A DNA stretch of 64,000 bases from assembly GCA_914767715.1 (NCBI GenBank), contig OU612075.1, positions 16,926,001-16,990,000 on the forward strand, in the 5' to 3' direction. Below are positions 15,201 to 64,000 of the stretch, one piece after another. How positions within the stretch are numbered: the stretch's first letter is position 1; each line of letters starts with the position of its first letter. Both the position numbers and the translations under genes were made by a program. This stretch comes from Membranipora membranacea (lineage: Eukaryota; Bryozoa; Gymnolaemata; Cheilostomatida; Membraniporidae). The notes beneath the pieces are model-generated. The model searched no databases, had not been told where the DNA came from, and saw only the letters and a program-made list of their open reading frames with translations.

Positions 15201-17858
15201 TAGAACCAGGTAAGAGTGTGGTGTGTTTGTTTGCTGAAAAAGTCTCAATATTAGATAACTGTGAGGACGGTCACTCCTTTCTCAATGTTTAGATACCGTA
15301 AGTCAATGGCAATAGTAGGATTATTCTGGCTCAGTACATTAGAAGAATCAATAGCAAGACTGCCATCTACTGAAATTACTATATAAATACTAAACTATCT
15401 TAGAAATTAGATCACTTGATGCAAGAAGTAACCTGTTACTCCTTTCTTGATGTAATAGGATCATCCACAACATGAAAATAACTTGGACCTTAATTCGAAA
15501 TCAGCACATAAGTAAACCATTTACTTTAATGTTCTTTTTCCATAGTCTAGATACATAACTCCCAATTCCCGGATACCGTGTCTGTACCTCTAGAAATAAG
15601 TGGCTCCTCGATACCTGACTTTTGCGATATCCTTCTGCCACAAAAAAGGGAACAACCTCGCTCTAGGTCTACTCTGTCACTAACTTTATTGTTACTGTTA
15701 TTTATTTGGGCAGTAAAAACATGCTGAAATCTTTCAAGAGAAGAACACACAGCAGTACGGTACGATACCATTGAAGATCGAAGTTGTGACAAGATACAAA
15801 ACAAGACTTTACTCATGCCAGTATTCAACTGAAACAGAATCTTGCGTTGTGCTCTACTGCCTGAGTAGGTTCCATGGATGAAGCTATAAGGTAAGTAAGC
15901 ATCAAATTATAAATGTTTGTTACACCATAATTTATTGTGTTGTATTTACTATGTTATTACCAGCCAAACAGATTATTCATAACTATCATGCTGCTCAATA
16001 CCTAAAAAATCGCTGTAAAACAGTGAAAATACATGTTACAAATATCCTGTATATTTTAAATTTAGGTTTATGTAATAACGCCCTTGCGCAATTTCCCTAT
16101 GCGTGGGTAGGTGTCATGACTTGACACACTTCTATTTCCACCACGGAGAAGATTTATGGTAGTCTTATATCCTTATCTGCAAAAAAATATCACTTGGCCC
16201 TTTTTATAATGGTGGTTAATAGTGAACATTTATTGTTCGCTTTCTATACATCAAGTGCTCGACTCTATTCGCTATCGAAGCATCGGTACAATATTTGTAT
16301 GGCTGTATATTTTTTGGATTTTATTTGCAATCTTTCATTCTCATGGTGGGCTATATATATATTATATAAATGAAATGTGCTGTCATAATGATTTAAATTA
16401 CACTAATCAAAAGAGTGTCTTGTCATACTGTTGGCTGAACTAGTCAGATAACATACAGAAGGCAACAGATGCTGATGTCTTAGCAAACCTCATTATGGTC
16501 TGGTAGTTATTGTAGGGAAGGATATACAGAGGCGACACTTCATTAAATAGTTATGTTCCCCACGGATAACAGACTTTCCTCTCAATACACCACTTTTACA
16601 TTATCACTTCGCCACCATGAGAGAGCCAACTTGTTCGAGCTGGCTGCCAAACATCCATCATCTTTTTTTTCTATGCATGAAAATAGCACTAAGACTTACA
16701 AAACAACCTACCTGCGCAGGCAAATGTTTGCAAATGAGTAATCAGAATGACATTCCTCATATGTGCCAAATAAAAATACCAATACAAGGAAAGTGAGGTA
16801 CTAATCAATCTTTATGAATCTCCATAGCAACGTTAAAATTTCCTTTGGCACATTGGTGAGTGACACTATTGATTACGCACAATTTAGTTTCTAGCTGTGG
16901 TAGTAGTAGGATTTCACTGTCTGTGCTCACTCCCGTGAAACTGAATCTAGATACAGTATTTTCAACCATCCAAACATCCCAGCGGTGGCCTTGTTAGTTT
17001 ACAATTATTACTAAAAAAAAACAATAATATCAGAGAAGAGGATTTAACCCAAGATTGAGGAATTATACTGCAAGAGGTGAACTTTAGATTGAATAAAATG
17101 GAGACTAGGTAGTAAAAGTACCAGCAGATAAAATATCAAAAGGAAGTTACAAAAAGCTTGGATGTAATGCGGGAGCAGCCACTTCAGTAAAAGCAATTTT
17201 GAAGCAGATAATAATCAGAACCGATTATGTTTGGACCTGGAGGCCAGCATGCTGCACCTATCTATTCTCATACATTCAGGTAGGTGTATCTCACGGGATA
17301 ATTGGTGTGTGGTTATTTAGTAAAAAGGAAATGCAGCAGGCTGGTAATCATCCCATGCTATCTATCTATCATTGGCTTTAGCTCGGTTTGAATGAGTGGA
17401 AGCTTGAAAACACCCCTGCCATTTTAATGGGTTTGACTTCATGCCAGCAGCTGTGTGGCCTAGAGTCACTCAAATGTGATGCTGATCTGTGATTTGAAGA
17501 TTGAGTTAGGGATCATAATTCAGGAAGAAGCTACAAATCATTGCTTTCACTGCTAATCTACGGTAATCAAGATTACCAATTGGACCAACAAAGTCTAGTC
17601 AATAGCAGAAGTAAGGCTGTGCATAACATGCAATGGAGACATATTGTAACTTAGCTGGTTTCTATTACAAGCCTCAGTATTGTGTAACACTGTTTATCTT
17701 GATTCATGCCATCAGCTTTACACCTTTTCCTTAATAATAGAATCGATTATTCTTACAGGCTGATTACCAGTTTCTACGCAGTAACACTACTCTGCCTCAC
17801 ACAATCACCTCAACTGGCACACTGCATAAAATTTAACAAAATTATTTCCCCAACGCAG
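12297..17858. other. 5.5 kb with no supportable gene
   Basis: Scanned on both strands. Open frames are short and unlike known families: a 60-residue minus frame at 12306-12488, 13581-13814 plus, and 15547-15828 minus. At 15018-15190 there are short coding-like stretches with donor-like sites near 15116 and 15210, and a good donor (AAG|GTAAGT) follows a short ATG frame near 15893. One of these could be the missing 5' exon of the receptor gene downstream, but none gives a signal peptide with the required phase-0 junction. Confidence 0.5.
12690..12790 (+). repeat. Possible tRNA-derived SINE remnant (B box only)
   Basis: GGTCCCATGTTCGATTCCCG matches a tRNA T-arm with an intact polymerase III B box (GTTCGATTCC). 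Upstream sequence at the expected A-box distance is not convincing, and the flanks do not fold as a tRNA by eye. Weak call. Confidence 0.3.
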
Positions 17859-20800
17859 GCTATCAGCAACCTGCGAGGATCATATGAGGTGGACTTAGGT
17901 CATGCGGTGCTAACCCCAGCTCTAGAGGATCCTTCTGTCACCCCTGTAGAAGCCAGTCAATGTACTCTATCTCTAGCCAGACAGTGTTATGTGCCTCTCC
18001 CTCAGCTGGTGAGTTGGTTTTATCATGCTGCGGTGGTGCTTTGTGGTAGCCCTGTGGTACAATGTATGAAGGGTGCATTTAGAACCCTGAACCAATACAT
18101 GTCAGCAGTGCCAAAAGTCCCTCTGAATTGATCCTCTAATTGGTGAACACTTATTCACTGTGGGGACGTTCCACTCCAACCCAATACGATGGTTTTGGTG
18201 CCCTATTGGTATATACATTTATCGGAAAGAAAGCTGAGGTGTTTTTTTTTTGCATTATCAATCTGACCATTATGTCCCAATCTCTATCATTATCATGCTT
18301 CAATAGTTCAAAGGAATTAAGCTTCTAAGTTTTACTCATTATAGAAAAGTATTGTCATAGCAATGCCTCATTAGAAAACTTCCTGACCCACTGGTTGTAA
18401 ATTAACACCTAACCTGTGATCTCGTAGCTATTTCTTGCATACAAGCTAGATAAATGGTAAGGCCTGTGTTGCCTATTAAAGGGTATTGTAGTCACAAATC
18501 CCAGAGGATTTGCTTCATAGAAATAACACAAAATCAAAGGGACAATATATACCTGCTATTCCACTTACTCCATAAATGTTGCCAGATCAAGATTATGAAC
18601 AAGCGGTGGATTGGCACAAGAATTTCCAAAGGCTCAGGATGTGCTCTGATCACGTCATGCTATCAGAGTTCCATTCACTTCACTTTGATACGATCAAGCC
18701 ACTTCCTGGTAATCATTTCATTTTGCAATTTTTGTTGTGGTTATAAATACCATGGTGCAGTTTTATAGTATGTTTTATTATTTATTTTGGGTGGCTTATA
18801 ATAGAATGCCACTACCACCAGTCTGGTTAAAGTTTAAGCTATTGCTTCTATGACTTCAAACCATTCGTTTCAGATTGAAGGAGGTCGTGATCACGTGTCT
18901 GATGTCTGCACTATATGTGAAAGAGTCTGCCCTGAACTTGACATTGATAGCATGGAAAAGTATGATGTTATCAACACAAATTATACTGCTGGTACTACTG
19001 CTGGAGCTTTACGGTATAGCACCATTAACGCCTATGTTAGAAAAATCTTGCTACCAGGTAGGCTTAGACAATTTTCATATTCAATTTAAAAGTTCACGTT
19101 AATTCTTGAAATCGAGACTCGGGTTTTTTCCTCATGCATTATATAGCAACCGTACCTGCTATGTCTTCTCTTTGCATTGAAGTGTATTTTTGGCCCTACA
19201 CTGGGAATTAATTGCCTGTAATATCTTACAGCTAAATTGTTTTACTATAATTATGACTTAAATCCAACCACTCTACGAATTTTCCAGATGGTTCATATGG
19301 CTTAGACAGTGACAATTCAGAAAAAGAATCCCAGAAATATGGAGCGAGGATATGGAAGGCTTCTAATTATTTCGACCATGTATGGGCGGATGGGACAAAT
19401 TTTGCTTTCGAGCAGCAAGTGAATGCAACAATAAGTTTCAGGCTGCATCTTAACACGACCAACATCTATCAGTAAGATACCTCAATCAATGAGTTCATTG
19501 CCTCAATGTCATGAAGTTCGGGTCTCCCTTGCCATTTCGAAATCTAATTAAAGGGAATAAAATACGTTGATCTTACTTTCTCAATTCGGTTGATTTTTTT
19601 TTACAAATCTCTTTATTCCACTCGACTACAAGTGGTTGTACAAGCTGTGTGCCTTGATTATGTGGTGCATATAATTTTAAAGTTCTCTTACTACCCAATT
19701 ATTGTTTTAGAAAGCGGGATGATAGTGGAGAACTTGAAGCATGTGAAGATGTCCGTCTGTTTGCCGTTACGAATTACGTTCCTAAGATATTACTCAAATG
19801 CAACGAGGTCAGTCTTACCGCTTGCCTCATTTGACCAGGCAACAGGCAGCATTTCCTTGTCTAATACTACCAAAGTCTGTGGTAGAGAGGTCGATAGGTC
19901 ACACAATTGGGGTAATGCGGATTGATCACCTATTATTTGCTAGTAGGGTCTGAGGGAGAAAAACAAAAATCCTCTTCTTTTAGCAAAGTATATAAACCCT
20001 GCCTATAATAAAATAAGATATGAACGTACATTTGGTAGTCCATGCTTCTGGGAAATTATTGATAGATACCAGTAATCATTCATTCATTTGGAGCCTATCA
20101 TTATAACACATTAATTATAATCGGGGCTCTCAAGCTAGGAGCATCCAAATCCTGAGGTCTGCCGAGAGCTTGTGGAGTATTGACGCTTCAAAGGCGAAAA
20201 ATGTGCATGTGCCTTGTGCATAAACAGCTCAGGGTTTGGGGTCTTTGTAAGCCGCCCCAACATGTCCGGTCGTGGAAGCCTAGAGAGCAAATTTAGAAAG
20301 CTCTAAAGATGAATACCATTGGGTTTCAGGGTATCATCAACAAAAAATCAACTGTATATTGTTGTATTCTCCAACTTAGATGAATGTGAGGCAATAACTG
20401 AGTTTTTAGCTCATATTCTGAAATCCCCTGAGTTGCCTGATTTAAACTCAAAAACCTGACTAATTCAGGTTAAATCTGAGTGGTTGAGCCCTGAGAGCCC
20501 TGATTATAATACAACAGTTTTGCAGGCAAGAGATAACATGGATATTTACTTTGGTGATGACTTCATACAAAAATCTGTGTTAAATGATGAAACTATTCCG
20601 ACTGTTAATAACAGTATCCACATAGCCTCGACGGTAAGTTGTATTTTTTGGTTGAATCTTATGATTCTGAAGTTGCGTGGTAAATGGGGGGAAAACTGTC
20701 AGGTGGAAAATGTGGCTCTCTGTATGTATGGAGATGCTACACCATTGACAAAATTTGTGAGGCTACATGAAATAAACACTGCATGAAATATGTGCTTTTT

Positions 20801-23800
20801 CCCAACTGTTCTATGTCTGAACAGATTGGAATAATTATAGTTATTCCCACATATTCCTTAATTATTCACAAGTTTTTCTCTGGTTAAATATTCCATGATG
20901 TGGAATAACTGATCACTAATTATTCCCTTTCTGGGAATAACTGAAATTTGAATTCCAATGAGTTGTTTTCTCATAAAAATAAATCCTCATATAATATCAC
21001 TATTACTGTGACAATGCTTGTATAATGTTACCTCAAAACTGCACCTGGGTGCAGTTTGTCTTATATCACCATTCAACTGTTGTGGTGGTCATAAAACATA
21101 AAGTGATCTTTGTTGACAAGTCTAGGAAATACGAAGATACCTAACGTATCTTTAGTTACTGTAATGTTTTTCTTTCCAGTTTGATGCAGTCCGAAATTCT
21201 AACACACTGTATGTGAATGGCAGACTCCTGCAGTCAAACAAATTTGATAGATACACTGAAATCGCACGTAATTTAAATCATTTTGAGTTATTTGGTGATT
21301 TGGGATACACTGGCTTGTTGTATGATTTCTTCATATATCGACAACCTCTAACAGAAAGGTGAGTTGTCACTGGCTGGTTTCTGGTCAACACACCTTGAAG
21401 GAGGCAGACTGACACCCAACTCGATCACATGAAATAGAAAATTCAAAATCATTCTAATCACGAGTAATCACGAGTAAATCGGTAAATTGCGAACATGTTT
21501 AACTCTGGTAACGGCGACTTATATATAAATAATTCTGTCTTTCCCACAAATAAAATATGGCATTGCTTCAATGTGAATTTCCATGCCCCTGGTGTCGCTT
21601 TGGTTAAGTATCATCAGATTAGAAATGAGGGTAGTCTCCTGTGCCATCATTATATGTTGTTCACATCTCTGTGAGAGGTGAATTTAGCTACAATGCACGC
21701 TGTTATAGCTTAGGTTGTAACTTCAGCTTGTCATCTGCACGTTGTGTTGGTCTAATTCCCCAACTTTTTTTGCTATGACGATAATTTCCTGACACACCAC
21801 TACATCGTGGTTGAGACAAGAGTTTTTTTGCAGGGAATTTATCTCTTATCCCTGTTGGAATATGATGGCATAGTTTTTTCTGGTGTTCTAAGATCTAAGT
21901 TTGCTAGAAAAAAGCTCTGAGTGGAGGTTTTGTCATGAGCTTATTAAACACAAGTCATATCAACCACTTACAATGTGCCATTAATGCTAATTTTACCGCC
22001 CACCTAGTAACTAAATGAAATTTGAATACTTTGTGTAAAGTAAAAGCTGACAATAACAAATAACATCATATTAATCTATTCTTCAGGCTGATTATTGAGC
22101 TGTTTAGGAATGAGACAGTAGCAGTCTCACCCGGAGGGAATTGCTATTGTCCAATCAGTCATCCCATGTTTGTGCCCTCATCCACAATGACAGGTGGATT
22201 TGAGGCCACTTCTTGGTCTGGCACTCAATGTGCATCTGTGCAGAACATTACTGTTGATACGACTTCAGCTGAGAGGGAGGTGATATTGAGGTAGATAAAC
22301 TAGATTATACTTATTTTTAGCATCATCTGAATTCTCATGTGACCCTTAGTGATGTGAAGTTCTGGAAACCAGACTAAGATGCAAATGGACCATATTATAT
22401 GCAGAATAATTTTTTCTGGCTTATTCTCGGCAAGCTATGTATGTCCACCCATAGAACTTAACAGAGAATGACACGCATTGATGGTTGTAATGTGAAACTT
22501 TGAAGTTGCTTGACAAAATGGCCCCAAGAGTTTATGTGGAATACCATCGGGCGAAGGCCTGTCAGGGCTATGCTGCTTAAGTAAGAGACAAACCCCAAAC
22601 CCCAATGCACGTATTGTGCATTGGGTATGTCCAGGGTGCTATGCTCCAACATCCGTCTCATACTTATGTCCAAGTCTAGACCTTTCGTCTTGGATACTTT
22701 TTTGGATTGCTCTCGCATTGTTTGTATCTCGGATGCTAAGATGAAAGGGTTTGCAATCATCAAAGGTTTGACCAGCATTGCAATGTTGTTACTAAACTTT
22801 ACATGTATCTTATTGAAGGCAATCAGTGGTAGGCAGAATCACTGGTCACTCAAATCCGTACCAGAATTTGGTGAACTCAAAGGATGATGAGTTTTGGATA
22901 TCCGGAGATCCTAAAGATTTCAAACAAGCTGTCATAGAACTCAGGCTAGCTGATTTCTATCATGTGAGTTGATGACCTTGTCATTATTGTTTAACACAGT
23001 TACAAGATGTAAATTTCCAGTGAAATTTTGTTGTTTATATATTACCGTCAAATTCTTCTTGAAAAAAGCCCTGAAAAACTACAAGATGCTTTGAATTGAT
23101 AAAAAAGTTATTTTTCTTGGCCTTCATAAATTTAAACTAGTCAACAAACCCTCAAAACTGTAAGTTGAGTAAAGATAAATTTAGCTATAGAAGAATATTG
23201 TTTGTTGTTGTAGATTCTTGCGGTATCAGTGAGAGCTGAGACTCTCCCTCAGTCTCTGATGATTCGGACACAGCAGCCTGTTCTTGTATATAACCACAGC
23301 TGTACCACCTTACCCGCACCGAATATAACATGTAAAAAATGGGCAGATACTGAATTCTTTGGGTGAGTAGCTACTGTGTAAACATAAAATACATCTCAAA
23401 TAAATAACAATTATAATAATATGATAACCATTATCATTTGCTCTTTATGTAGACCAAATCGGCCAGCTTCACTTTGCTTTTTGTCCAATGAAATTTTATC
23501 TGTTGCGGACATATCACAAACAAGTATGTTGAGCTAGTATGCGTTACAATTTTATAGATATAGATAAAACGGGTCGGTCATATCAATTTTGTTTGACATT
23601 GTCACAAGTCTGATAGCTGCGATAATATGACATGGTTGACAAAATATCCATGTCTTATATCCATGTCATCTTTAGCCAGATAAAAACAACTATAAGGTTC
23701 CTGAATTTTTTATTACCTAAGCTGCATTTCTACATAATATAATGGGAGAGACATTACAGAACTACATTCTAATTGTTGTTCCAGTCAGGTTAAAGCAAAC

Positions 23801-25026
23801 CCAAAGTTATTTAAGTTAGGGACTTTGGGTGTTGCATTCAGACCTTATATTGTCTCTACTTATAAAGTGACTTACTCTTGATTGACCTGAAGGAGGCTGT
23901 ACCTAACGACCTGAAACTGGACCTTCGGAGGACTGACAGATTAGAGCTTGTGCTTGAAGGAAGCTATGACCCTGAAACTGTGCAACCATATGTAATGAGA
24001 GATATCCAGATATTTGCAAGGTTTGTGATCTTTGCCTTTTCAACATATGTGAAGAGGATTATCAAATCTGAACCACTAACAAACCAATCATTGTTTCTTG
24101 GCATGCTTTCCAATGAGACAATATCTACAATCACTCAAACAAACCTAGTATCACATTCCTTATGCAGCAACTAGTACAGTGACTGATGTCCAAACATCTA
24201 ATGTTATCTAATACAGTTGTGGATGTTTAAATGGACACGGCGATTGTATAGTACTTGACTCTGAGACTGGAAATTTCAGCTGTCAGTGCGACAGTAAATA
24301 TCTCGGTGACTACTGTGAAAAGTAAGTATGTAAACATTCCCTCACACTAATATACCAGGACTCACCCAAATATATCAGTACCAACCTCTTCCTATACAAC
24401 AGGACTTACTTACTCTTATACAGTACTTACTCCAATAGTATCGGGACTTACTCCTATATATCAGAACTTATCCTATTTACTAGAACTTACTCTATATCAG
24501 GACTTACTGTAACATATCAAAATTTGCCCTTCAATTCTTGCACTCTGAAATGTTCTAATTTAGGTGATCGACTCATTGTTCAGGGGAACATAAATTTGGG
24601 CCTGATCTGGACTTAAGTCACGAGAAAAATATAGACCCCAGTCCCCCTTGACAAAAGCTAAAGAAAAAAGATCAATTTTTTCAATTTCTTGGCTAGCCTA
24701 TTTATATGGTTAGAAATCATTGCCACATTTGCTTACAAGTAAATTTTCAATGTAGCAAAGCTTACCGTGATAATATAGCAAAGCGGAATTATAAAATTGT
24801 TCTATCATATGCTGTCCGATCTATATAATATAAATATAACTATAAATATAAACATATATAATTTATTTTCAGATGTAACACAAACTACACGAGTAACCCT
24901 TTGGGTGGAGGAGACTGTGTACCATGTGACTGTAACCTTGAGGGGGCAGATAATCAAGTCTGTGATCCGATAGTGGGCACCTGTTCTTGTAAAGAAGGCC
25001 TGTCATCATTGGCAGGTAGACACTGT
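17859..25026 (+). other. Receptor head: usherin-like cysteine segment, LamG-like, laminin N-terminal and laminin-EGF modules
   Basis: Residues 1-632 of the traced protein follow the order seen at the start of usherin. First a cysteine-rich lead ([14 protein letters not shown], then [10 protein letters not shown]). Then a LamG-like jelly roll (19288-21358), with YVNGRLL and [16 protein letters not shown] as its closing strands. Directly after comes [11 protein letters not shown], matching usherin's CRCPGSHP linker. Then a laminin N-terminal-like domain (22087-24020) ending in [11 protein letters not shown], and EGF-type modules [10 protein letters not shown] and [10 protein letters not shown]. 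Family assignment rests on remembered usherin and laminin patterns, not a search. Likely role: binding matrix or another cell's surface. Confidence 0.78.
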
Positions 25027-27207
25027 GTAAGTTTGTTAGTGTATCTAAAAAAATGTTTATAGTGTCATAGCTCTTGGGAAAAGCAGTTTTTTCATCACCG
25101 TACAGTTTTTCCGACTATGGGCAGTTATTTTATTGGCATGTACTATACTTGCTGAGTGAGTAAGTCTTAAGCTTTTTCTGCTACCAAGCAAGTATTTTTG
25201 GAGAGTGGAAATATTACTGTTGATCCTTTGGCACAACATTTTGATCTATCAAAGTATGCTACCCATAATACCTTGTTTTCAGTCAATCGATCGATCTATG
25301 CCTACTGCACTTACACCGCCCTTTTGACCAGGTATTTTTCATGCATAATAAAGGTTACCCCTCTATGTATGATATACTTGTCTTGTAACAATCCTTTTAC
25401 TATGTGGTTTTAAGGAACCTTGTGACAGTGGTCTTGCTTGCAACAAGGGTCAGACAGTAACTGAGTATTATGTCTAGCTATGACCTACATGTTTTACAGA
25501 ATCCATATCTGACATCAGCGAATCCTAAGACAGGGCCTAAGGCTGGTGGAACAAAGATTGACCTGAGAGGAGAGTTACTAAATCAGATAACAAATATATC
25601 CCTGGATGGCCAGGAGTGCTCAATATTAGAAGAGGGAAGGTAGGGTCTGGTTAAGCAATTGGTAAATAGATCTCTACACTAGAAGAGTATAGTCATTTCA
25701 GTAGGTAAAAAATTGCCATCCCGCACAGGTTAAGAATAGCGAGATTTACAGCTACCAAACAATACTCAACCTCAATACTTTATGTATACTCCCACCTTAG
25801 CTGGCTAAAATTGGTGCCTGTTATAATAAGTTCATCCCCAAATTAAAATCTAGCTAGTATTCACTCCTATAGGGCATGTTTAAACAATGAGCTCCATTGA
25901 TTAAGGTATATAAGTATAATATAGGTATTTAGGTATATAGGTATATATGTATATTGGTATTTATGCATATAGGTATACGGGTATACAGATATACAGGTAT
26001 ATAGGTATATATGTGTATAGGTATATTGGCAACAAACAATTTATAAAACTGCCTACAATCATTGTTTTTTTCCATCAGTAGACATGAGATATAGAATAGC
26101 AAGTACCTCATTTCATCTTAGTTTTGTTCTTCTTCTCAGCCGGACGAAAACTTCGTTAAGTTGCACCACAAGCCCGTTACTAAATGATGACAATGTGAAC
26201 AAACTTCTTCTGTTTGTCGTGACTATCGATGGTACGCAGGACTCCACACCATACAACTCAAACTTGAAGTTTGAATACCACAGAAACCCTAACATCACTG
26301 GACTAAACAGAATATCCACTATCCAAAGGTTTGTCCTGTGTACTTTGTCTTTGTAACACTGCTGTAGCAGATCAGGGATTGAGGATTCCCTTGTTCTGGG
26401 AGATTTACATCTATGAAATGAGCTATCAAGCATAGTTCAATATTTTGTTTGTTGGGGAACCATGTAAATCGATAACTGATACACATTGATTGCAGCGACA
26501 ACCATCTGGCAGGCAGGATGGCGTAGTGGTTGAGATGCAAGCTAGACAATCTGAAGGTTGCTTTGTTTGCTAATGGAGGTGAGCTCTCCATCCAGCCGAG
26601 CTTACCCACTCCTACCTTGTACAGAGGTTGAATTTCATTTGCATATGTAATATGTTTCATGTCATGTAAAGACATTTGGAGAGCTGCTAATAAAAAGTGA
26701 TTTACATTATTTATACTTACATGTTATCAAATTATAATACTATTTGTACTCATTCACATCTTTTTATATAATTAGCGGCGGTCTAAATGTGACATTTAAC
26801 GGTACAGACCTACAGGGAGTTCAGAGCCCCTTACTCACTCTGAATGTAGTATGCAAAGGTTCAACTGCGCCAATCGGAACTTTTAAACAAGTGAGTCTTG
26901 TCTATTATTTTTATGTTAAGTTGATGATCCTATAAAGGTGTATGAGTTAGGGAATCAAGCTGTAATTAAATTTAGTCTCACAGAAGTGGGATGAATTTGT
27001 GCTTCACAGGTCCTTGTTTCCACGGCGTACATCAAAGCAATAGACTAAGGCAGCTCAGATCTAGCAAGTATAACATTTCAAATGAACGCCTGCCCACACG
27101 TTTTAAGCTAGTACTTGTACAAAAGCTCTGTCAATCGTGTTCACCCCTATAAACTTAACCTTGAAAACTAAATAATTTACATCGCCAAAACTCAATACAA
27201 ATGTAAC

Positions 27208-27277
<70 letters not shown>

Positions 27278-30200
27278 CGATGATGACGATGACGACGACG
27301 ACGACGACGACGATGATGATTTCACTGTGTCTATGTGCGAAAAACTTCAAATAGGTGTTATGACAAATTTGATTTGGGATTCTATGGTTCTAAATTAGCC
27401 ACAATAACACAACGGCAAAACTGTTAATGAGCAGCCCATAAAACATATTAGATCAAAAGGTAATTTACGTTCCGAGTCTCAGTCATAGCTCTTATGGTAT
27501 TTGATCTCGTTAATAAGGTTTTAGAAATTTATTTATTCTGGTAATTGCTTAGATAACACCATATCTTATCAATTTTGTTGCGACAACATTGTAGAAATGT
27601 ACCTACAGAACTCTTGGTAAATATGCGTACTCATGTAAACTACCCAATGAGAAAGAGATAAGTGCTTATACTCAGCAATGTGAGAATACCCGAGAGAAGC
27701 GCCAGGCTAATGACGCTCAGGTAATATAATGACGCTCTATATCATCACCATAATTTATTTTTATCTCTGCATACTACATCATGATAACTCTCACAGTGTG
27801 GCTATGGTGTGAAGCTGAGCTGAATCAAGTAGTCTTTAACTCCTTGACTGAACATACTGTTACAAAACAAAATGTTTCTGCCTTTCTTGGATTGTTTAAC
27901 CCAATTATCAGGCTAAAAACGCATATCAGAAAACCAAGAATTTCAATTTAATTTGACCGGAAGATCTAAGTAACAGCCTCGCTATTGCTTGCTCAAATCC
28001 ATCGCTCGTTTGGTCTTTTAATTCGTTCCCAAATCATTTGCTGAGATCATCAAGCAGCAAATAATTTAATAGCCAGATAGAGAGTTTGGCAGTTTTAAAA
28101 TTGTAACTGCTTGAAAAGGCTGCTGTGACCTGTCATCATATATCATAGATTCCCATCACTCATGGTATCATCCACAATCTGCCAGGTCTAAGTGCTTAGA
28201 CTCCTAACATTCTAAGTGTTCAGACTCCTAATCAGTGATCATTGAGGGACACTGATCTCAGCCTGTTCAGTGTCTGAGCACATAGGCGACATGGTAGATA
28301 AAAGTAATGTAGGCTGCTATCTCTTCTCAGGTGGCTCACAAGCTGTGGATGGGACTAGAACTTGATGGTTACACGGTATTCAACAATCTCAGTGATGTCG
28401 ACTGGCTGAGCGTACCTGAGTTCGTTTTCCAGCCTGATCCTGTTTTCAATAAGTTTGAGGAACCTGATGGCATAAGGACCTTCAAGTAAGTTGGTATATC
28501 TTTCCCATACTAGCATACATCCCATCTGATTTATTTTGGTTGATTAGGGAGTCTCACTGACAGTGTTTTCAAATTGTGTACTGTATTGAAAACTAGATTA
28601 GATGCCTTTTCCAGTTCTTAACAAGAAGGAATGAAATCAGCAAACAGTAATTAGTTGAGATTGAAGTTGACACCTGAGTCAGCTAATCAATTATACAACA
28701 ATGCAGACATATTTCTGTTATATTGTCTGGTAATTAATATATATTTTGAATTTGATGCCGATGCTCAAAGTCATGTACATATACCTAATAGTTATATCAA
28801 TTCTATGGTCATATACACCGATATTTAGGCTTGTCAAGCGACCACTTTAAAACAAAAAAAGATGGCCTCCTGATAAGGCTGACTGACCGTATGAATTCTC
28901 CCTACAGGGTTAAGGATGATACTGATGACAAAGGACCACTACTGGTCATAAAAGGGGACCATCTCGCCCTCTCAACAACTGTAACAGATTATAGTGTTAA
29001 AGCTGGTGAGTAAATATTGTGAGTTTAATCAGGGAGCTTAAGCCCCCTGGTTTAATGTTGTTAGCAGACTAGCCAAATTGTCAATTTTTACACGAAGAAT
29101 ATCTCTTCAGTGACTTAAATTTGGCTATTTCCCAAGCCGGAAACTCGCCTGGTATTAACTCCACCGAGGAATAGGAGATGGCTCAGTTGGTTAGAGCGCT
29201 GTCCCTAAACATGCACATGTTGAAGGTCGAGGGTCCGAATCCCACTGCAGTCATCGACTACTGGGGTTTGGTTGGCCCCCAGGTGTGCTCCAACCTGCCT
29301 GCTAACAGAGAGCAAAATTGGCGCAGATATTGCGGCCTCGCCATTAAGGCGCTTCAATTTCGCCGTCCATGCTTCGGGATTTGGCGAGTGATAAGACATC
29401 GATTTTAATCAACCTCTTCCTTAATCAATTGGAATTCCAGAATCAAAAGTACTCTGCTGATCCGTGAGGTCGATAATTCTTAGTCTGGCCCCCACAGTTA
29501 ATCAGTTAATTTCCAGAACGAGATTATCCCGAAACGCTACAGTATTAGCCTGAAACTTGCAGTGTTTAGTATCAATGCACTAAACTTGTCTCTCCCTTCA
29601 GGTCAGAGTAAATTAGAGATCGTTAGTCTTAACAACACCCACCTTATCTGTCAGCTAGATAGCACATTCCCTGGTTATGAAGATGATGATAAGGGTCCGG
29701 AGGTAGATGGTCAGCCTACTGCTCCTGTTACCGTGAGTTTAACATCACAATTACTGTAATAAAGCCGATAACAGGGACACCTTTACCCTTTATTACTGTC
29801 ATAAAGCCGTTAACGGGGACACATTTCCCTTTTTTACACAATAGAGCCAATAACAGGGACACATTATCTGTATACAATGTGATGGCTCTGATCTGCTTGG
29901 CTGTTCGGCGCCGGCAGCGTTTATCAAAGCAGCGCATTGTCTATCTTTACCTGCTCTGACTAAAGAAGGGAAATTCAGAAAATTAAAATCCTCCTATTAA
30001 GACCAGTGCAGGTGTTCTCTGTTGCAAACTGAACCGATGACTATTTTTTTCACAAAGTTGTCGGATCTATGGCTGTTCAGTATCAGTCATTGACACAAGG
30101 AAATACTCATCACAGTAACTGGTGCTTGATTGGAATGGGGCTGCTAGCTGTCACTATCACCAATGATAGTGAAACCTAGTTTGCCTTTTTGGTGTCTGGT

Positions 30201-33200
30201 ACTATATCTTCTGTATGTGTGCGGTGGTCAGCATTACCTGGTGGTGAGCTTACACATTTTCATTATGACCTTTCAACAGGTGCATTGTGTTGTGGGCTCT
30301 ATGTAGTTTTGTTATTTCTTCGGTTAAGGACTAGTTGGGGGGCGGAGTTTTTGAGTATGCTCTTCGAAACACATTGTGTATTTGTGGTTCGTCCGTAATT
30401 AATGCACTCGGAAGTGTGCTATGCTGTAGTAAATAATTTCACACATCACAAAGTTGGCGCTTCGAGTTTTATCCTTCATTTAATACACAAGTTTAGCTGA
30501 AGTGAATCTAAATTTTCAATTTGTGAAAACTGCCCAGCAGGACACATCATGAGTTATCATAAGTAGTATATCAATAATGAAGAACAACACAGCTGGAAAC
30601 CTGATCTTATTGTTTCCCTATGTAATTATATCTGGTGGTCAAAATCAATATGAATGAATTAAATTTACTATGAACATGGTGTCATTGATATAACATGGAG
30701 TGGTAAACAATGAAACATATTAAGTTGTTCAGTTGAGTTTTGGAGGATTCTGAAGTCAGCCTGACGGATTTACTTTCCGTGAATTGGTATGTTTATCTGT
30801 CGGTGTTATTTGTTGGTAGTTACAACACATGTTTTCAGTATACAATAAGTGATATCTATAGTAACTGAAATGGTTGAATTTTGGCTGTTTTATTTTAGTT
30901 TCAATTAGTTTAACAATTCTATTGTAATTATATGGGTACGGTAATTGACAGAGAGGTCAACTGGGTGAAATGGTAAAAAAAAAAACGTTTAGCAATACAT
31001 CTTACAATTATCTTAAATATAAGGACAGGTTGTTCATATAGAGCTAATCGTCAAACAAATCAGAAGAGGTATTTCCATACTGTAATATCTCTCAGTGCAT
31101 GCCACAGATGATACCAGGGTGTTTTCTCATAACATCCTCAAATCTATACACCAGTCCATCATAGCTTTCAGTACATCGAGTGGCAGTTCCTCTGTAGATA
31201 TCCACTGGTTGTGGATCACACCCATAAAAGAAAACTATCTCAGTTGATTCGCCGACTTCCTGTGGCATAGTAGAATTACTCCAGTACGCGTACTCCTCTC
31301 CCGTGTACCTCCCACATCCGTAAGACACACCCACATATACAGGCGGACAGGAGGCTGCTAACCTGTTACCGGCCTTGTGTAGAAATCTGAACCAAACTCT
31401 GCCTGAATCGAGGAACTTGTAATCCTGCTGAAGTTCACTATAAGAGCTGAAATACTGCCGCTTACTCTCTGTCAAGTTTAATGTCCACGCAGATGTACAT
31501 TGTGAGGGTAGTTTGGGATGTGGATCCGTAACTGATGACTTGTGTTTCCTGGAGGAGTTTTTGTGTTTTGTCACCTCTTTTGCTGCCGATACATGTTGTG
31601 CTGCCGTTACATGTTGTGCTGTTGAGCTTGTATGTGTTTGAGATGTATGATTGCCCTTTGAATTTGTGGTATTTGCAATTCCAGATTTTTCTTTCTCATC
31701 GGTCTTATCCTTGGTGGTTGATTCAGCTGAGGCGATAAAATTTCTCTCCGGTTTTCGCTTTATATCAGTACATTGTTCAAGTAGTTTGAGGATTTCGTCC
31801 TTCACCTCAAGAGGGCAATATGCTCTCACTCGTCTCATGTGCTTTGACCTGAATGTCAGAGCCAAGCTCTCAGATTCACTTTTTGCACGGCTGAATACAG
31901 AACCCCTCAAATTAATGTTAAAAATTAGAAGCAAAAACAAACCCATCCAAACTGTCGCCATGTTTTTAAAGTTTGAATATAGTTACCCTATCGAACAACA
32001 TGAGTGAAAGCTGTCAGCTTTGTTTGTTTTATAACTAATCTCCGTTTGAGTTGCTCTCCAAAGTTTAACAGTATTATTATGAGAAGGCTAATAATCGAAA
32101 TAATTATGTTTTAAATGGCCGCTATCCCAACACAGACACTGTGGGCTGTGAAACTACTTTGTGTTGTCTGATGCTGAGGTTGTTAACAGAGAATTGATTT
32201 GATCCAGTTTGTTTCTTCAAAAGGTTGGACTGTCAAAATAATGTATGTAATTTAAACCCAAATTTTTATTTGATAATCCTCAGTCACGCATAAATAAGTA
32301 CATGTGCCCTCTCTTCTTACAGGCAAAAATAGGCTTAATACCCACAAAAGTGCCCTTAAATTGTCTTTCTAATCTCAGATCTTTAATCAAGTTGGTGATG
32401 CTGCTTTAAGACTAATGCCAATTAGGATCATGATAGTGTTATTCTTGATTTTATGGCACACACTTAAGAATTATCTTCACAGAAAACAAGAGAACATAAC
32501 TTACTTATAATACAAGATGAATGAGTTCCATGACAATTCTGTTCAGAGTTCTCTTATTCTAAGCTCAGTGAAGAAAATTAAAACACCGTTCGTGATCAGG
32601 CTGATCAAGGAGCTGATCTAATTCCTAGATTGAACTGATCAACTCATTTCTTCAGGCAGCCTAGCGAATTTCTACAGTCGTTCATTGCTCTTTTTCTATC
32701 CGTGTATTTTTTCCTTCCGATACACTTTTATGCTGAGATCAAAGGTTTGGACTGCGTACTCAATGACCTCTGTCAAAGTTTAATGTATCTGCCAAGGAAA
32801 TGTTATTGCTTATGTCAAATGACTGTGAGCTTCGTGTAAAGTTTATTAACTAAGTGTACAAAGTTCAGCTTCACAACGAGATTGCGGTCGATCACTGAGA
32901 TTAGATTCTCATCACCGGAGATTAATCGGGATCGATGTTATGTTCTTCAATTGAGATCTCTAACATGATTTCACTGTAAATGCATGATGTCACACCATGA
33001 TTGTACTTAGGAATCTCTCAGGAAAAAGCTCTCTGCTGCGGTGTTTTGTGGGAATCATGAATGTTACTTCTGTAGTATAACATTCACATTTCATTTTTTA
33101 TTTTATTAACATGTCAATGTATAAAAATTTATAAGTATTTTATTGACCGGATAAACACATGTTTGATAAAATCCGCAATTTATAATATAATAATGAAATC

Positions 33201-36200
33201 TTGCAAGAAAGAATGAATTGTTCAAAATATATAATTGTGAGCACATATGATTGTGTGACTGTATATAAAAGCTGACATAGGAATATTTAGTTCTTATTTC
33301 TAATTTTTCGTTTTGCATATTTGTGGTCATTTAAAGTCAATTTGTGTAATATTTTGTCATACATAGAGGTCGCGGCTGTGTTTAGTTCACTACTAATCAG
33401 TTCATCCCACAGATTTTTCCTTGTTGCTCTGTCATTTCATCCTCAAATCTGTAAACAACTCCATCATCGTACTTTGTACATCTGGTAGCCGAGCCAAAAT
33501 AGATATTTCTTGGAAGTGGATTACATGTATGATAGAATATAATAGGAATGGTATGGCCCAGTTGAGTTGGCATTGTGCTGTTACTCCAATATGGTGAGAT
33601 TGGGCTATTGAACGCACATCGGCTTTCTTGGCATATATTTGCAAGTCTTTTGCCTGCACTGCCCTGGAACCGGAACCAGACTCGGCCCAAATCAAGAAAT
33701 TTATAATCATAACTGTAACCACATCCTGGAGTTATCCATCGATCGCTCTCTGTGAGGTTCAGAGTTCTCAATGAAGTGCACTGATGTGGAAGGTGTCGTG
33801 AAGGAACTTGTGTCTCTTCCTCATCAAGTGAATGCCTTGCAGACTCCTGGGTTGCAGGTGTGATTGTGTCAGCTGTTGTTGGTAGATTGATATCTAGGCC
33901 ATCTGTAGAGGAGGCCTTGTGACTTTTTGTGACGCTATTTGTGGACTGTGTGGTAGTATTCTGATTCAGAATCCAAGCCCCTGCTGGAGTCTTTTGATAG
34001 CTACTTGTCCCCTCAGGAGAAGATGTAACAGGGGTAGTCATATCCTCAGGTCCTGCAGTAATATTACTACGTATAGTAACTGTTGATTGTTCTTTTTTCT
34101 CCAGCTGAAGTTCCCCTTGACATTGTTCCATCAGTTCTAGTATGGCCTCATATATGTCACTCGGACACTTGGCCTCCAGTCTCTTTGTCTGTTTTGCTTT
34201 TATAGTTATTGAATACACGTCAGAGATGGCGGAGTCTTCAAGCTGGGCTTCTATAACACCAGCAGCCACCAGATGAATACAGAGTATAAATATCAGAACC
34301 TTCATTGGCGCCATTTCTAATAAATATTTCCAACCTATTTATTGCAGTAGATGAGGCTGAAATGCTAGTGACACGGCGACACAGAGAAGATTTATCTGAA
34401 ATGTTTCTGTACCTTCGTAATTATTTGTATGTCTTCTAGTCCTAACGGGCAAAGGTTGTGCCCTTTGTCTTGACTTGTTTATCTGTAAGTAGTTTTCAAT
34501 CAGGAATAATTTGGCTCAGTTTGTTGTGAGAAGATGGTATCGCACGTCACTCCTATGTTACAAACTTGGGTTTGATTACAATAGGAATGTTTTACTGAAA
34601 TATTGAGTCTTATTATTGACCCATTAGTGAAAACGCCAGCTGCCAACAAATTAGATAAATTTTAATGGGGTGACTTTACACGTTTATTCTAACCGTCTTT
34701 AAATTGCCACAAACATGTTTGAAGTTGCAGTCTCTCTCAAAAGAAGCACACAACTCCACATTACTGTCAGCTCTCATAATTAGTGTAATGTTACAATGTG
34801 CAGCCACCTTAGGATGGGTATATTCTGACAATTGTCATATTTATTTTGATGTGTGACCTGACTTTTCCTTTTTTTCAAGCTGGGTTCCTGTAATGCAAGC
34901 AACTCCCGGCTGAATACAAAATAAGATATTAAAATTTGATCTGTGCCATTTTTCAATGGTTCATGACAGTATATGTGACTGAAATTCCAGTGCCACGAAG
35001 ACACAGTGAAGATTTTACGGGATATTTTATGTAACTTATAATATAGTAGCTCTATCTCATAGTCCTAACCGGCAGAGGTCATTCCATTCAACTTGACATG
35101 TTTATCTCTAAATAGATTTCATTCAGGAACAGTTTGGCTCAGTTTGTTGTGGGGAGAAAGGTATCACACATCACACCTGTATTTTGTTACCTTATTATTG
35201 ACTCTTTAGCAACATTAGACATTTGTGGGATGTCATTTCTGGTTATGATTTGGTATGCTGAACTAAACTCTACTTTACTAAAATAAATAGAAGGCATCAT
35301 GATGGGAACATGGATTATTATTTGCCACATCAAAAATAAAACAACACTCGCATGTGATCGTTTCAATTTTTCACCAGAAATATACAGCAGAAAACTAAAA
35401 GTCCAGCGACAACAAAAAGACATATGGTTGTAGCAATTCTGAAAATCTCGAGCTGGATCAATAATAAAAGCTATGTTATCCTATACACAATTGACAACGA
35501 TTTCTTGACTGTCAATTGAATGATGAATTTTGACTTGCAGGAGTAACATTATTGTAAATATTCAGAGATACTATAATATGCCTGATATGAATGTGATTGA
35601 CTCTGATAGTGGTGTACAGCCATATATAATCTTCTACTCAGTTCATCCCACAGATTATGCCTCCTCTCTCTGTCATTTCATCCTCAAATCTGTAGACAAC
35701 TCCATCATCCTCTTCTGTACATCTGGTAGCCGAGCTGACGTAGATTTTCTCAAGGCGTGGATTACATGTGTGGTAGAATAGAATGTGCGTGGTTTGGCCG
35801 ATCAGTGAGGGCATTGTGCTGTTACTCCAGTATGCACAGCTAGAGCCTGAACTAGAATATCCACACCCGTGTGATGCTGTTAATCCTGTTGATCTTGTTG
35901 GACAACTACTTGCCAGCTTCTTATTAGCACGCCCTTTGAACCTAAACCAAGCTCGACCAACCAAGAACCTTGTAGCCTACATAAAATCTTCGGGCATCGG
36001 TGAAGTTAATATATGCAATCCTTTGATTTTCAGTAAGGTTAAGGGTTTTGACTGAGTTACACTCCGGTGGAAGATTAACTGTTTTTTTTTTGTATTCCTA
36101 CTGGTTAATCGGTGAATCTTTGTTCTTCTGACTTGAGTCTGATGCTTTACCTGAATGTGTAGAGGTCTCAGCGTATTATACTGTTGTTGATGATGTTGGG

Positions 36201-39200
36201 TAGCTTACTGTACTCTCATGAGATGACGTAACAGAGTTTAGGGTTGAGACGTCATTAGATCTTAAATTGGATTGATTTCTCCCCAGCTGATGACCTTCAC
36301 TACATTGTTCCATCAGTTCCAGTACAGCCTCATATATGTCACTCGGACACTTAGCTTCCAGTCTCTTTGTCTGTTTTGCTTTCATTGATTACTCGAGAAT
36401 TTGTGTAAGGTGGAGCAATGAACGAGGGAGTTCATTGGGTGGAGATATCACTGTAGTTTTCCCACTTGCACAGAGGCGAGATAACTCTAATGCAACTCAA
36501 ATGAATCAAAGGCTATATCAACACAATCAGGAACAGAATTAATATTGATCTGTATCTTTTACACACTGTATAAGTATCAAACTTTGGCGGCCCATGATCA
36601 GTAAGATGATTTCAAATTTATCCGTTTCATCCGTGCCCCGTAACAATATCTAACGTTGATGTTTTAGGTGTAAATGGTAATGATAAATAAATGCAATAGG
36701 CATTCACCAACAGTATCAGGTGTAAAATCATAAACCTTCATTAGGAGTTTAAAAATTGGCTTGTTCCAAATATATGAGAATGGTACCGTAGCAACATCGA
36801 AAAAGTCTCGCTAACAAAGTTTAATAATTCCACCAAAAAACCTGCCAAATGGATTTAAACGTGATTTATAATTATTGTGTTTGTAGGTGTCGGTGGCAGA
36901 AGAGAGTTACAGGCTGGGATTTGTGTACTTTGATCAGATGATGCCTCTAGAGACTGTATATATAGCTGTCATAGTCGTAGTATTAGTCATTATAGTGTTA
37001 GCTGTGGTCATAGGAGTCTTAGTTTACTTGAGACATGCCAAAAAACTCAGAAAGGAAAGAGAACGAACCATGATGAGGGGCTTTGAACTCATTGAACGTA
37101 AGAATTCAACATAGGTGTCAAAATTCCCTCCTTTATATATCTATGGTATTTACAGACCTAAGTATGAATAGTAATAGCAAGCTTTATCCCGCTATAACTG
37201 CTTATATATTATTGATGCTCTTAGGCAAAATATATGCTGGCCCCATAGACTTATCGTTAAGTCTTTGGTTGGCACAGTCCTTGGATTATGAATAGTCAGC
37301 TTTTTTGGTATAAAATAGGAATGGATACCGAATTACCAATGTAAATAAAACCTCCAAAAAATCAACACAAATGTTAATCTCCAAACAGTTACAGGCTTGA
37401 GGATCCATTCTTCTTTATTTGTCTGATGATGGTGACCTGTTTATTTCTTCTATATTTCAGCGAGTTCCCTGCAGACGGAGATTCAGTCACTGCTTATAGA
37501 AGAAGAGCTAAACCAGAGTCTGTTCAATCATCTCATTCCATCAAACTTTGTAACTCAGGAGGTCATTATAGGTCAAGGTCATTTCGGCCATGTCTATCGT
37601 GGTAAAGTTTTCGTACCGGAGCTCAACATAAACAAGGTCATCGCCATCAAAGCTTTGAAGTGTAAGCACAGAAATTGTTTCAGCAAAACAAGAGACAACA
37701 TACAGAAAAACCTTTCCTTATTATATGCCCTAAAGTTAATCTCATGTGGCTACAACCAATGACAGTTTCTCAATACAATACCACTATATCACTAGAAGTC
37801 ATCGCCAAACACACAAAAAATCAGCGATTTGAGAATTACGGAACTTCTGGGCTGTCAGAACATAGAAATGTAATTGAAGGGTCTTATCTTTAGTACACAG
37901 GTCGCATATAGGGATCCATGTCTATGTTTTCTATATATGAGGAATTTCGTTTTTTCTTCAGCGTCTGGATTGACAGCTCGAGATGTGGTGAACTTTGTGA
38001 AGGAGGCTCTGCTGATGAAGGATTTTAAGCACATGAATGTGCTGCCGTTAGTCGGTATAGTGTATGAGCATGCTGAAGTGGATGCGCTGCCTCTCGTTGT
38101 CACACCTTTCATGGAGAAAGGGGATCTGAAAACTCTCATCAGTGACAGCACCTATGTGAGTAACAAGACTATAGTGCTGGTCAATAATTAACCTAGATAT
38201 TTAGTTATAATTCCACACTACGATATGTAATGACCAGAGTAATCAAGTGAAATATTATGCAATTAGCACCCTGTCAAAATGATGATGATAACATCCGGGA
38301 CTGTTCACCCAAGGTTTTTTTCCTTCAAGTTTTCGTAGCATTTAATGGCTAAGACGGTTTTTTGAATTTAGCATTTATTTGGTTCGTTCAATGATGGATT
38401 ATAATATTGAAATACAAACAATTAACAAATGGGGCCCATGCACGCAGAAGCAGAGTTAGTCGAGGCTTGAGGCTGCCTGTTTTTATCCAGTTTAGTTGGT
38501 TCTTTGTGAAATAAAAGACCTTTCTATGCGCTGTTGTTTCTCTACTTCAGGAGTTCACGGCTGGAGATCTGCTACACTTTGGTCTGCAGGTAACAGCAGG
38601 AATGTCCTACTTGTCTAACCGAAAGTTTATACACAGAGATCTCAGAGCTGCTAACTGCATGTGAGTTAAGTCAGGCTTTTGTTGGGTCAATCTTGAACAT
38701 TGCACTGATATTAAGAATAATATCAATATATATATTAATATCATATACATATACTATCATATCTTAATCATCTATAATAATGTAGATAATTAATGTATTT
38801 AATTATCATTTATAACTATGATATATTTATCATCATATATATATAAATATGTAAGAATATTAATATCACATTATGATATAAAACATTCAGTGGCGTGAAA
38901 AAGTATAGTTATAGTGAATCGTCTCTTCATTGATATAAAGAGGACAACTCTGATAAATAACATTTGCAGAAGTCTTTTAATTTAATTCGATAAGACTGGA
39001 AGACATTTTATGGTGGAGTGATGTTGTACAATATGAAATTGACTTCCATTATCAGGGAACAGGAAAACTTTCCAAGCAGAGCATTTAAAAACTAATAACG
39101 GAGGGGTGTTGTTGAATATTTAAGCACATGCTTCCCTTTTTATGAACACACATGTTTTATAACAATCTGCATATTCCGATATCTGCAGGGTTGACTCCAT

Positions 39201-42200
39201 GTTCATAGTGAAGATTGGAGATTTTGGCTTGTCGCATGATATATCAGAGAGTGATTACTACAGGCCACAGGATAAAAGTAAACCACTGCCCGTTAAGTGG
39301 ATGGCTATAGAGGTTCTCTCTGAGGAGAGTAAATATACTACCAAGTCTGACGTGGTAAGTATGTAATGTGGTGTCCTTTGCTTGTCAAAACTTATGTACT
39401 GTTTTCAATTTATTGAGAATTAATATAACCGTAAAAATCATTGAACTAGAAAACCAGGAACATACTCATGCCTAACATAACTTGAGTCCAAGTATGACTC
39501 ATAAGAAGAGAAACCTGTCATCGACAATCAACTCGCTATGATACTTTACTGGTTTTGTCATAAATCAACAATTAATAAAGTTCTTGTTTATCAAATCATC
39601 TTACCAAGTTTTACCATCCAATTGCAATGCAGCCATGGGAACTTACTCGCCAGGTGACATGACGTACTCTACGCTCTACCATATGTATAACTAGACATCT
39701 GGCAGTGATTATGAGTTACACATCAGAAGTTTTATAGTTGTACTCCCTTTGTTGCAGTGGTCATATGGTGTGTTGTTATGGGAGTTGATGACTCGAGGTT
39801 ACCAACCATATGCTGACATACAGAATTCACAGATAAAGAATTACATCATGAACGGACACAGGCTATCGAAACCTGACCATGTGCCTGATAAAATGTTAGT
39901 GTAATTGTCAATGGTATTTTTCTACTGTCTCTTCATTGTCTGTTAAACTCACAAGGTCTGTGTCAATCTGATGACTGAGAATTAACGATGCCTTATGGCC
40001 AAGGCTGTCATATTCGGCGCGGAATTTCTCACAGTTTTCAAGCAGAATTGAGCATATAACTCGTAACTAACATTCGGAAAGTAAGGGAGATCTGTACCTG
40101 GAACTTGTTAGTCTGATGAAGTCAAATTTGAATCACAGCATTTTAAGGCCTCTGCCCTACTGTTGGCTCCGTTTAATTTTTGTTACTGGCGAATAATCTA
40201 GACCGTTTGGGAATATGCTTCGTCTCATGATCTCAATACAGCTGAAGTATAAGAGATAGTGTTTAAAATTACACATCTCATATCAATCAAAATATAGTTC
40301 TACATATATATATATATATACTAGGAGTTGGAGGTGGCTCAGTTGGTTAGAGCGCCGGTTGTTCAACGCGCAAGTGATGAAGGGCGTGGGTTTAAATCCC
40401 ACTGCAGTCCATCAACTATTGGGGTTTGGTTGGCCCCCAGGTGTGCTCCAACCTGCCTGCCTGCAAACTGAGAGCAAACTGGCGCAGACATTGGGGCCTA
40501 GCCCTTAAGGCAACTAAATTTCGCCGCTCATGCTTTGGGATGTGGCGAGTCCTATGACATCTGATTTTAATTTTGATTTTTTAAATCTACTAATAAACAC
40601 TAATATAACTGTTGTAGATATGACATCATGACTGCATGCTGGGCTGTAGATCCTCTAGGCAGACCTTTGTTTGAAGAGCTCACTAAAACCATCTCTGCAC
40701 TGCTGAAGCAAGCTGATGCTGGCTCTCAGAGGTAAACATCACATCTGTTACATATTTACACAGCTCTTTTTTCTCTCTTTGTACTATACTTCAAGTGAAC
40801 TTCACTGACACAATAAACGCTTGCCCACATAGATACTGTCATTGACTCATAGTATTTTAGTAGGACATATACGTTTTCTCTGTTGAATCCCAGCTGCAAC
40901 CTATGACTCCGCATGGAAAATGGTAAAAATTCTGCTCCATGCATATATAGGCGATCATCTTTATCCGCTGACGTTGATAGGTCACATGATCTGTAGCATA
41001 TGTACCTATTTCAGCTCGTATCACACAGACTACACGAGCCCACTGAAGGAGGTAGATTATGTGAACCCGGAGTCTATGGAGCACTCTGAGCTGTGTACAG
41101 ATGAGTGGTCAGCTATCATTCCTCTGATCAAAGCTCAGACTGGCAGTGAAGACTATGCAGATACCGGCAGGTGAGTGTGTCACTAACCAAGGTCAATCAG
41201 TGCTAATGAGTGAACCTGATACAGATACGTTGTTTGAGCGCTTGTTAAATTGAGAGATTCATTTGTCTGATATGGTGTTTGGATATAGCAGTACCTCACC
41301 TTGTTCTGAACAGGTAACATATATTATGAATTCAGTGGGTATATGTGTTGTATTCAAGTCGTAGTTGGGTAGAATTCAAGACAACAAAGATTCATTTTTG
41401 AGTCCTATTTAAGTGTATTTCGGGTCAAATTTGTACTCAAACCGTAGCCAGATTCATGTCGTATCCGAGTCGTATTCTAGTCAAGTTGATGTCCTATTTG
41501 AGTCTTATTGAAGTCATATAGGATATAGTGTATGTTTTTATGATGATGTTATTAGGATCGGCGATGATGAGAACAGTGAGTCTGAGACAGAGCAGGCTGC
41601 TTCTACTTCTGCTGCTGCCTCCACCTCAGCTCCTGGGGAGGTACAACTACGTCAGCATGCCCGTGGCAGTGCTCTACTCGATTCACATCATCATCGCGAG
41701 GACTCACTAAAGAAGGAGTTAGTGAGGATGAGCGCCGGACCATCGACTGTAAATCACTACGCCGCTCTGAGGGATGAGGATGAGCTAGAAGAAGTGAGTG
41801 AATGGCTGGATAGGCCTGTACCTGTCAGTGATGATCTAATCCCACTAATCTAACCTCAGTGAATATCTGACCTGAGTCGGTCAGTCAGTAATAAGTGCCT
41901 TACATACGGCCTGCAGCCTTGGTTATTGATTGATTGATTGATTGATTGATTTATTTGTATTCTATCACTAACTGTAAGAGTTGCGAGAAAAAGGTTGCTG
42001 GTACACATACTGTGCTAAAAAATAATGAAGTTGCCTTGCATGCAAAAATAGTATTATTAAAAAGTAGTTAAAAAATTGTATTATTAATATAAATGCACAT
42101 GTTATCATAATGTAGTGTTTTTATTTTCGTTAATATCGGACACAACATTTAACTATAGTGTTCGGGACCAAGATTTTTTCCAGAGTAAACATTATGCTCA

Positions 42201-62370: not shown

Positions 62371-62518
62371 ACCCAAAAAGCCACTGGCCAAAAAGCCACT
62401 GCCCAAAAAGCCACTGCCCAAAAAGCCACTGACCAGAAAGCCACTGACCAAAAAGCCACTGACCATAAAGCCACTGGCCAAAAGGCCACTGGTCATATGA
62501 CCACTGGCTGAAAGGCCC
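62371..62518 (+). repeat. 15-bp minisatellite array 1 (about 9.5 units)
   Basis: Tandem units of the form AAAAAGCCACTGACC, with variants ending GGCC or GCCC. The open frame through it, repeating QKAT/DQKAT, is an artefact. Confidence 0.95.
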
Positions 62519-63790: not shown

Positions 63791-63953
63791 CCAGTGGCTT
63801 TATGACCAGTGGCCTTTTGGCCAGTGGCCTTATGGGTAGTGGCCCTTTGGCCGGTGGCTTTATGGCCAGTGGCTTTTTGGCAGTGGCCTTATCACCAGTG
63901 GCCTTTTGGCCAGTGGCTTTATGGCCAGTGGCTTTTTGGCAGTGGCCTTTTGA
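63791..63953 (-). repeat. 15-bp minisatellite array 3, inverted (about 11 units)
   Basis: Units such as GCCAGTGGCTTTATG and GCCAGTGGCTTTTTG are the reverse complement of arrays 1 and 2; two units are 14 bp. Arrays of opposite orientation flanking 0.8-1.3 kb resemble foldback-type terminal repeats. Confidence 0.92.
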
Positions 63954-64000
63954 CCCGAAATTGTACTGAAAGTTAGTAGTTAGTACAGTTTTAATGATCA

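Follow-up and report, generated by a model that had tools for sequence, protein, structure and literature searches.

The receptor tyrosine kinases MET and RON carry a sema-PSI head, a stalk of IPT repeats, a single membrane span and a kinase with paired activation-loop tyrosines, which is soon followed by a YxN motif. Plexin-A has a sema-PSI head, co-linear IPT repeats and a Ras-GAP domain instead of a kinase. Usherin (USH2A) has neither IPT repeats nor a kinase; its order is a lead, a LamG-like domain, a CxCPxSHP linker, a clear laminin N-terminal domain (laminin-N) and laminin EGF domains, of which there are many more than two, with fibronectin III repeats and a short tail. In a survey of these families (PMC6374515), MET is placed in bilaterian clades only and dated to the bilaterian ancestor, a form named Met-LP in lophotrochozoans and echinoderms has a tyrosine kinase beneath a complete plexin ectodomain with sema, and the sponge Amphimedon has six plexins. 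Here we describe a plus-strand gene in a 64,000-nt stretch of DNA (the window, whose coordinates are used throughout) whose probable product is a single-pass, MET-family receptor tyrosine kinase with the sema-PSI head replaced by an usherin-type head.

The predicted protein shares the kinase clade, IPT repeats, single span, paired tyrosines and nearby YxN motif with MET and RON, and differs in that no sema or PSI was found, in having three IPT repeats where MET has four, in its 748-residue tail with six YxN motifs, and in reading HRDLRAAN for their HRDLAARN. It differs from usherin by its IPT repeats and kinase and by the lack of a clear laminin-N, from plexin-A by its kinase and missing sema/PSI, and from Met-LP by a LamG/EGF-type head. 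A MET kinase with an usherin-like head, which a sequence-only reading of this DNA did not know from any described receptor kinase, was not described in the papers listed by full-text searches and judged by titles and abstract starts, a scope without most subscription journals and bioRxiv preprints. The accessible portions of PMC8662651, PMC6792448 and PMC5890393 hold nothing on a MET/usherin architecture.

By sequence comparison, the kinase is a member of the MET family. Pfam identifies it with an E-value of 6.2e-81 in a domain search of residues 1-1723, and the catalytic residues are present in the translation (by eye). When the best PDB chain per family was taken among the best 60 of 472 matches at E<=1e-40, MET kinase constructs reached 256.8 bits, followed by RON (233), MER (231), TYRO3 (224), AXL (218) and IGF1R (188). 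Among the same 60, a full-length MET chain reached 273.8 bits, 250.5 of which fall in the kinase stretch; the highest score, 281.6 bits, belongs to an EGFR chain whose two kinase copies contribute 139 and 141 bits. A likelihood tree of 18 rows places the window kinase, which is 46% identical to MET, as sister to MET+RON (support 97/96) within a MET/RON/TAM group (97/94), and the sister position has a support of 98/97 in an 11-row tree; most reference kinases in both trees are sequences that may be inexact, and DDR, ROR, RET, RYK and others are absent from them. Approximately unbiased (AU) tests on the 11-row set rejected both a grouping of the kinase with the TAM kinases (p-AU 0.017) and a group of MET, RON and TAM that excludes it (p-AU 0.024). 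The MET-like kinase with SDYY proposed from the letters is confirmed, the motif being literal in the translation and aligned with the paired KEYY tyrosines of MET, Y1234/Y1235. Searches of genome contigs and viral contigs with the kinase gave 10 and 1 pattern matches, respectively, none of which was confirmed.

The stalk and membrane span complete a MET-type half which is well supported at the level of sequence by the kinase tree, IPT co-linearity, span and paired tyrosines. Pfam TIG matches at 8.1e-15 in residues 1-1723 and at 1.2e-7 for the second part of the stalk alone, and the span exon is literal in the translation, so that the IPT repeats and single span of the earlier reading hold. The stalk is co-linear with plexin-A1 (E 3e-10) and plexin-A4 (E 2.2e-9), and its first 140 residues align with MET 657-785 (chain E 1.2e-5); by E-value it is thus nearer to plexin-A1 than to MET. 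The step FVFQPDPVF matches the plexin FLYYPDPVL before the last IPT repeat, which is itself completed in phase 0 by the membrane exon through an APVT-VSV join (29732 to 36887) across a 7154-nt intron, a fit made by eye.

The usherin-type head is partly supported, through domain order, the linker and a match to a human usherin reference whose letters may be inexact. The match runs from the end of LamG through CxCPxSHP to the EGFs and amounts to 43.9 bits in blastp and 26.4 bits in phmmer, modest values as the E-values are those of a one-sequence search. This reference appears sound enough, since it gives Laminin_N at 1e-33 and Laminin_G_3 at 5e-16 in the same Pfam library, the latter at the corresponding place, and finds laminin-N chains in the PDB. 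A peptide within the first exon is comparable to FKKVSIVPTQA of the usherin reference (20.4 bits, E 0.22). The proposed LamG-like domain is upheld in part: Laminin_G_3 matches residues 96-189 of a 198-residue segment at E 5.5e-5, although its 23.8 bits lie below the Pfam gathering cut-off of 27.6 and the match is seen on the segment alone, not in the full-length scan of residues 1-1723. The same segment found no relative in the PDB (four matches at E 1.2, all to one tRNA ligase), and an NCBIfam search of the head gave no match. Two elements of the earlier reading are borne out, namely the usherin-like linker after LamG, which aligns with CRCPGSHP of the usherin reference, and the laminin EGFs, with EGF_laminin at 5e-5 in residues 1-1723 and 1.9e-8 on the segment alone. 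With the 42-nt exon 25415-25456, which codes for cysteines 7 and 8, the second EGF has the full eight.

The gene model, built on the plus strand by exon chaining and hand curation, comprises 40 phase-consistent exons at 17706-48490 (6396 nt; 2131 residues; a single terminal stop), with GT-AG borders at 39/39 introns. The total of forty exons and their phase agree with the sequence-only reading, which had placed all of them within 17859-40731; only 28, counted from 17706, reach 40731, and a further 12 lead to the stop at 48490. That range is also too narrow, as the lead begins upstream of 17859 and a gene end at 40731 is ruled out by the phase and tail that continue to the stop. An automatic exon chain over 17001-48500 scores 317, compared with 68 on the reverse strand and with a mean of 7.7 (maximum 19.6) in 60 dinucleotide shuffles, a gap somewhat inflated because the model gene itself served to train the codon weights. 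The hand model scores 307 and a free automatic chain 327, including intron exons that were later rejected. Among the rejected exons, 46654-46741 is apparently repeat-derived, and the donor at 46380 restores the phase without it; 32660-32744 and 33763-33857 lie in the 7154-nt intron, the latter antisense to a nested gene. Automatic chains favour an alternative start exon upstream, at 17227.

Several results weigh against an usherin-type head within a single gene, and the possible inexactness of the references in the trees and in the usherin comparison has to be counted with them. The 228-residue segment at the laminin-N position has no Pfam match at E<=10, in a library that recognizes this domain in the usherin reference, and the laminin N-terminal domain claimed from the letters is not confirmed. 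A profile made by hand from three PDB chains and usherin scores 2.8 bits on the body of the region, which 14 of 2000 shuffles equalled (best 8.0; scores were returned for 1462 of them). Global alignments to four laminin-N references give z values of 1.0, 2.0, 0.4 and -0.8, when the references reach at least 22 among themselves, and the weakest exon of the model (23453-23527; coding -1.3, donor -5.6) sits in this region. In hhalign, the region gives P 0.0055 against laminin-N with a probability of only 6.6%, and PDB laminin and netrin matches span the last strand and the EGFs only. As Pfam is negative and the other tests are weak or negative, laminin-N is placed here by position and is not established. 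The Pfam result and the low z values speak for a receptor with a non-usherin head, in which the EGFs and a LamG-like domain were acquired separately with an unrelated spacer between them; we consider this unlikely, though it is the strongest of the alternatives, and the domain order, the linker and the YxxxDIQI...CxC step that leads to the first EGF, which agree with usherin and netrin, argue against it. An ordinary sema-headed MET with an unrecognised head would equally have the MET-like stalk and kinase, but Pfam detects neither sema nor PSI at E<=1 in residues 1-1723 and in the final 419 residues, a scan of 47 of the 88 other plus-strand open reading frames of at least 45 residues (29/29 upstream, 18/59 intronic) gave neither of them, and LamG and laminin EGF fill the place of sema, which makes this explanation extremely improbable. 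The model likewise contains no fn3 at E<=1, the domain of the fibronectin III array of usherin. The usherin head on a MET-like receptor stands as regards kinase, IPT repeats, span, order, linker and missing sema/PSI, and fails in its laminin-N part the domain search that the sequence-only reading had itself named as a test.

The continuity of the gene is questioned chiefly at the border of the EGFs and the stalk, where translation continued past exon 25415 runs into a stop at 25475-25477, so that a secreted head is possible, as a second product or from a separate gene. The locus could then consist of two neighbours, a secreted usherin/laminin-like protein that ends at this stop and a separate IPT-membrane-kinase receptor downstream, and the cost of such models is limited: they lose 6.7-19.7 log units over nine cut points, and 10.3 units when split at the EGF/IPT border (25200, 25460), 6 of which are a fixed gene penalty. 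Three minus-strand gene copies within the 7154-nt intron also count against a single gene. However, the stop lies inside a 43-nt GT-AG intron (25457-25499) across which exon 25415-25456 joins the first IPT exon at 25500 in phase, which argues against two genes, and the right-hand gene of the 25200 and 25460 splits shows no signal peptide by eye, which an IPT ectodomain needs, unless an exon went unseen. We regard two neighbours as quite unlikely, and a single gene from head to kinase is probable under the exon model. Retention of the 43-nt intron would yield a soluble head and may represent a receptor/decoy switch.

The tail has 18 tyrosines, six of which are in YxN (Grb2-type) motifs, a number reached by 4 of 20,000 tail shuffles; an incomplete version of the tail had five (22/20,000 shuffles), and the ectodomain has two YxN among 42 tyrosines. 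The tyrosine of the first motif (YVNP) is residue 1405, 29 residues past the Pfam kinase match and 24 past the last MET-aligned residue, and the YVNV of MET lies about 15 residues beyond the same alignment end point. The last 419 residues match no Pfam family. Repeats at 43453-45579 (SDGYLEF/SDGYLQF/AGYIDF and VYEEACEV/QYEEACSV) look like a duplicated docking module.

Such a MET-family receptor with an usherin-type head might act as follows. The head, held off the membrane by the IPT stalk, would bind either the matrix or a partner carried by an adjacent surface, and this binding could cluster the receptors. Clustered kinases may then trans-phosphorylate each other at the paired tyrosines of SDYY, and phosphorylated YxN motifs would recruit Grb2-type adaptors and feed Ras/MAPK-type signalling, like the YVNV site of MET. 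The whole would be a matrix-sensing receptor kinase on a MET chassis. The discoidin-domain receptors DDR1/2, whose kinases are absent from the trees here, are likewise matrix-sensing receptor kinases with a different ectodomain.

If the gene is non-bilaterian, it would show that heads other than sema can sit on the IPT-kinase chassis, and the connection that it would make between usherin-type adhesion and kinase signalling could be put to the test. The queries of PMC6374515 were the keywords plexin, sema and semaphorin together with BLAST using sema-domain queries, and such a survey would miss a sema-less MET kinase because its queries are plexin/sema-based. For the sponge orthologues of usherin and VLGR1, PMC4942974 reports enrichment in collar cells. 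A further, rather doubtful proposal is that the host is early-branching (a sponge being a guess and not a result). In that case, the union of a MET-lineage IPT-membrane-kinase unit with an usherin head would mean that the unit existed, and moved between heads, apart from sema and before the bilaterian ancestor; it might read usherin-type contacts, such as matrix or collar-cell microvillus links, into kinase signalling, and retention of the 43-nt intron could switch the product to a secreted head. The dating of MET to the bilaterian ancestor would be reopened if the gene is non-bilaterian.

Table 1. Parts of the predicted receptor gene in window coordinates.
Feature	Position	Strand	Basis or remark
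First modelled exon, start of cysteine-rich lead	17706..18008	+	Possible signal peptide RLITSFYAVTLLCL by eye; true 5' end uncertain
Cysteine-rich lead before LamG	18874..19057	+	No Pfam match
LamG-like domain	19288..22120	+	Exons 19288-19471, 19711-19807, 20526-20633, 21180-21358, start of 22087-22290
CxCPxSHP linker	22133..22165	+	Alignment to the usherin reference
Region where usherin has laminin-N; identity not established	22166..24020	+	Exons 22087-22290, 22819-22963, 23214-23362, 23453-23527, 23868-24020
Two laminin-type EGF domains	24217..25456	+	EGF_laminin; PDB laminin/netrin matches
IPT/TIG stalk, three repeats, seven exons	25500..29732	+	TIG match; last repeat completed by exon starting 36887
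End of last IPT (by eye), single membrane span (about 36959-37036), juxtamembrane part	36887..37097	+	Translation; span by eye
Tyrosine kinase domain, six exons	37461..40731	+	Pfam; best PDB kinase match MET; trees
Cytoplasmic tail, 12 exons, to stop	41015..48490	+	Six YxN: YVNP, YMNP, YFNV, YINL, YINA, YINY

The gene copies nested in the 7154-nt intron are three tandem paralogues on the minus strand (31092-31982, 33397-34338 and 35638-36388). The first two are open, with starts that by eye resemble signal peptides, and the third looks broken. They match no Pfam family near its cut-off, and their cysteine pattern presumably recalls D8C-type domains. Two further introns of the model contain a tRNA-like short interspersed repeat (29175-29400 and 40330-40560), and ARAGORN called no tRNA.

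Two other minus-strand genes are present in the window. One, at 49888-51692, encodes a fibrinogen C-terminal domain (Pfam 2.5e-32 on a spliced piece), and the other, at 739-5573, is UBXN7-like, with a thioredoxin-like domain (7.7e-13) and a ubiquitin-interacting motif that matches only weakly (E 0.44). On the plus strand, 6882-7289 resembles by eye the tail of a retroelement reverse transcriptase. Short tandem repeats of about 15 nt at 62373-62508 and 63791-63955 are apparently inverted copies of one unit.

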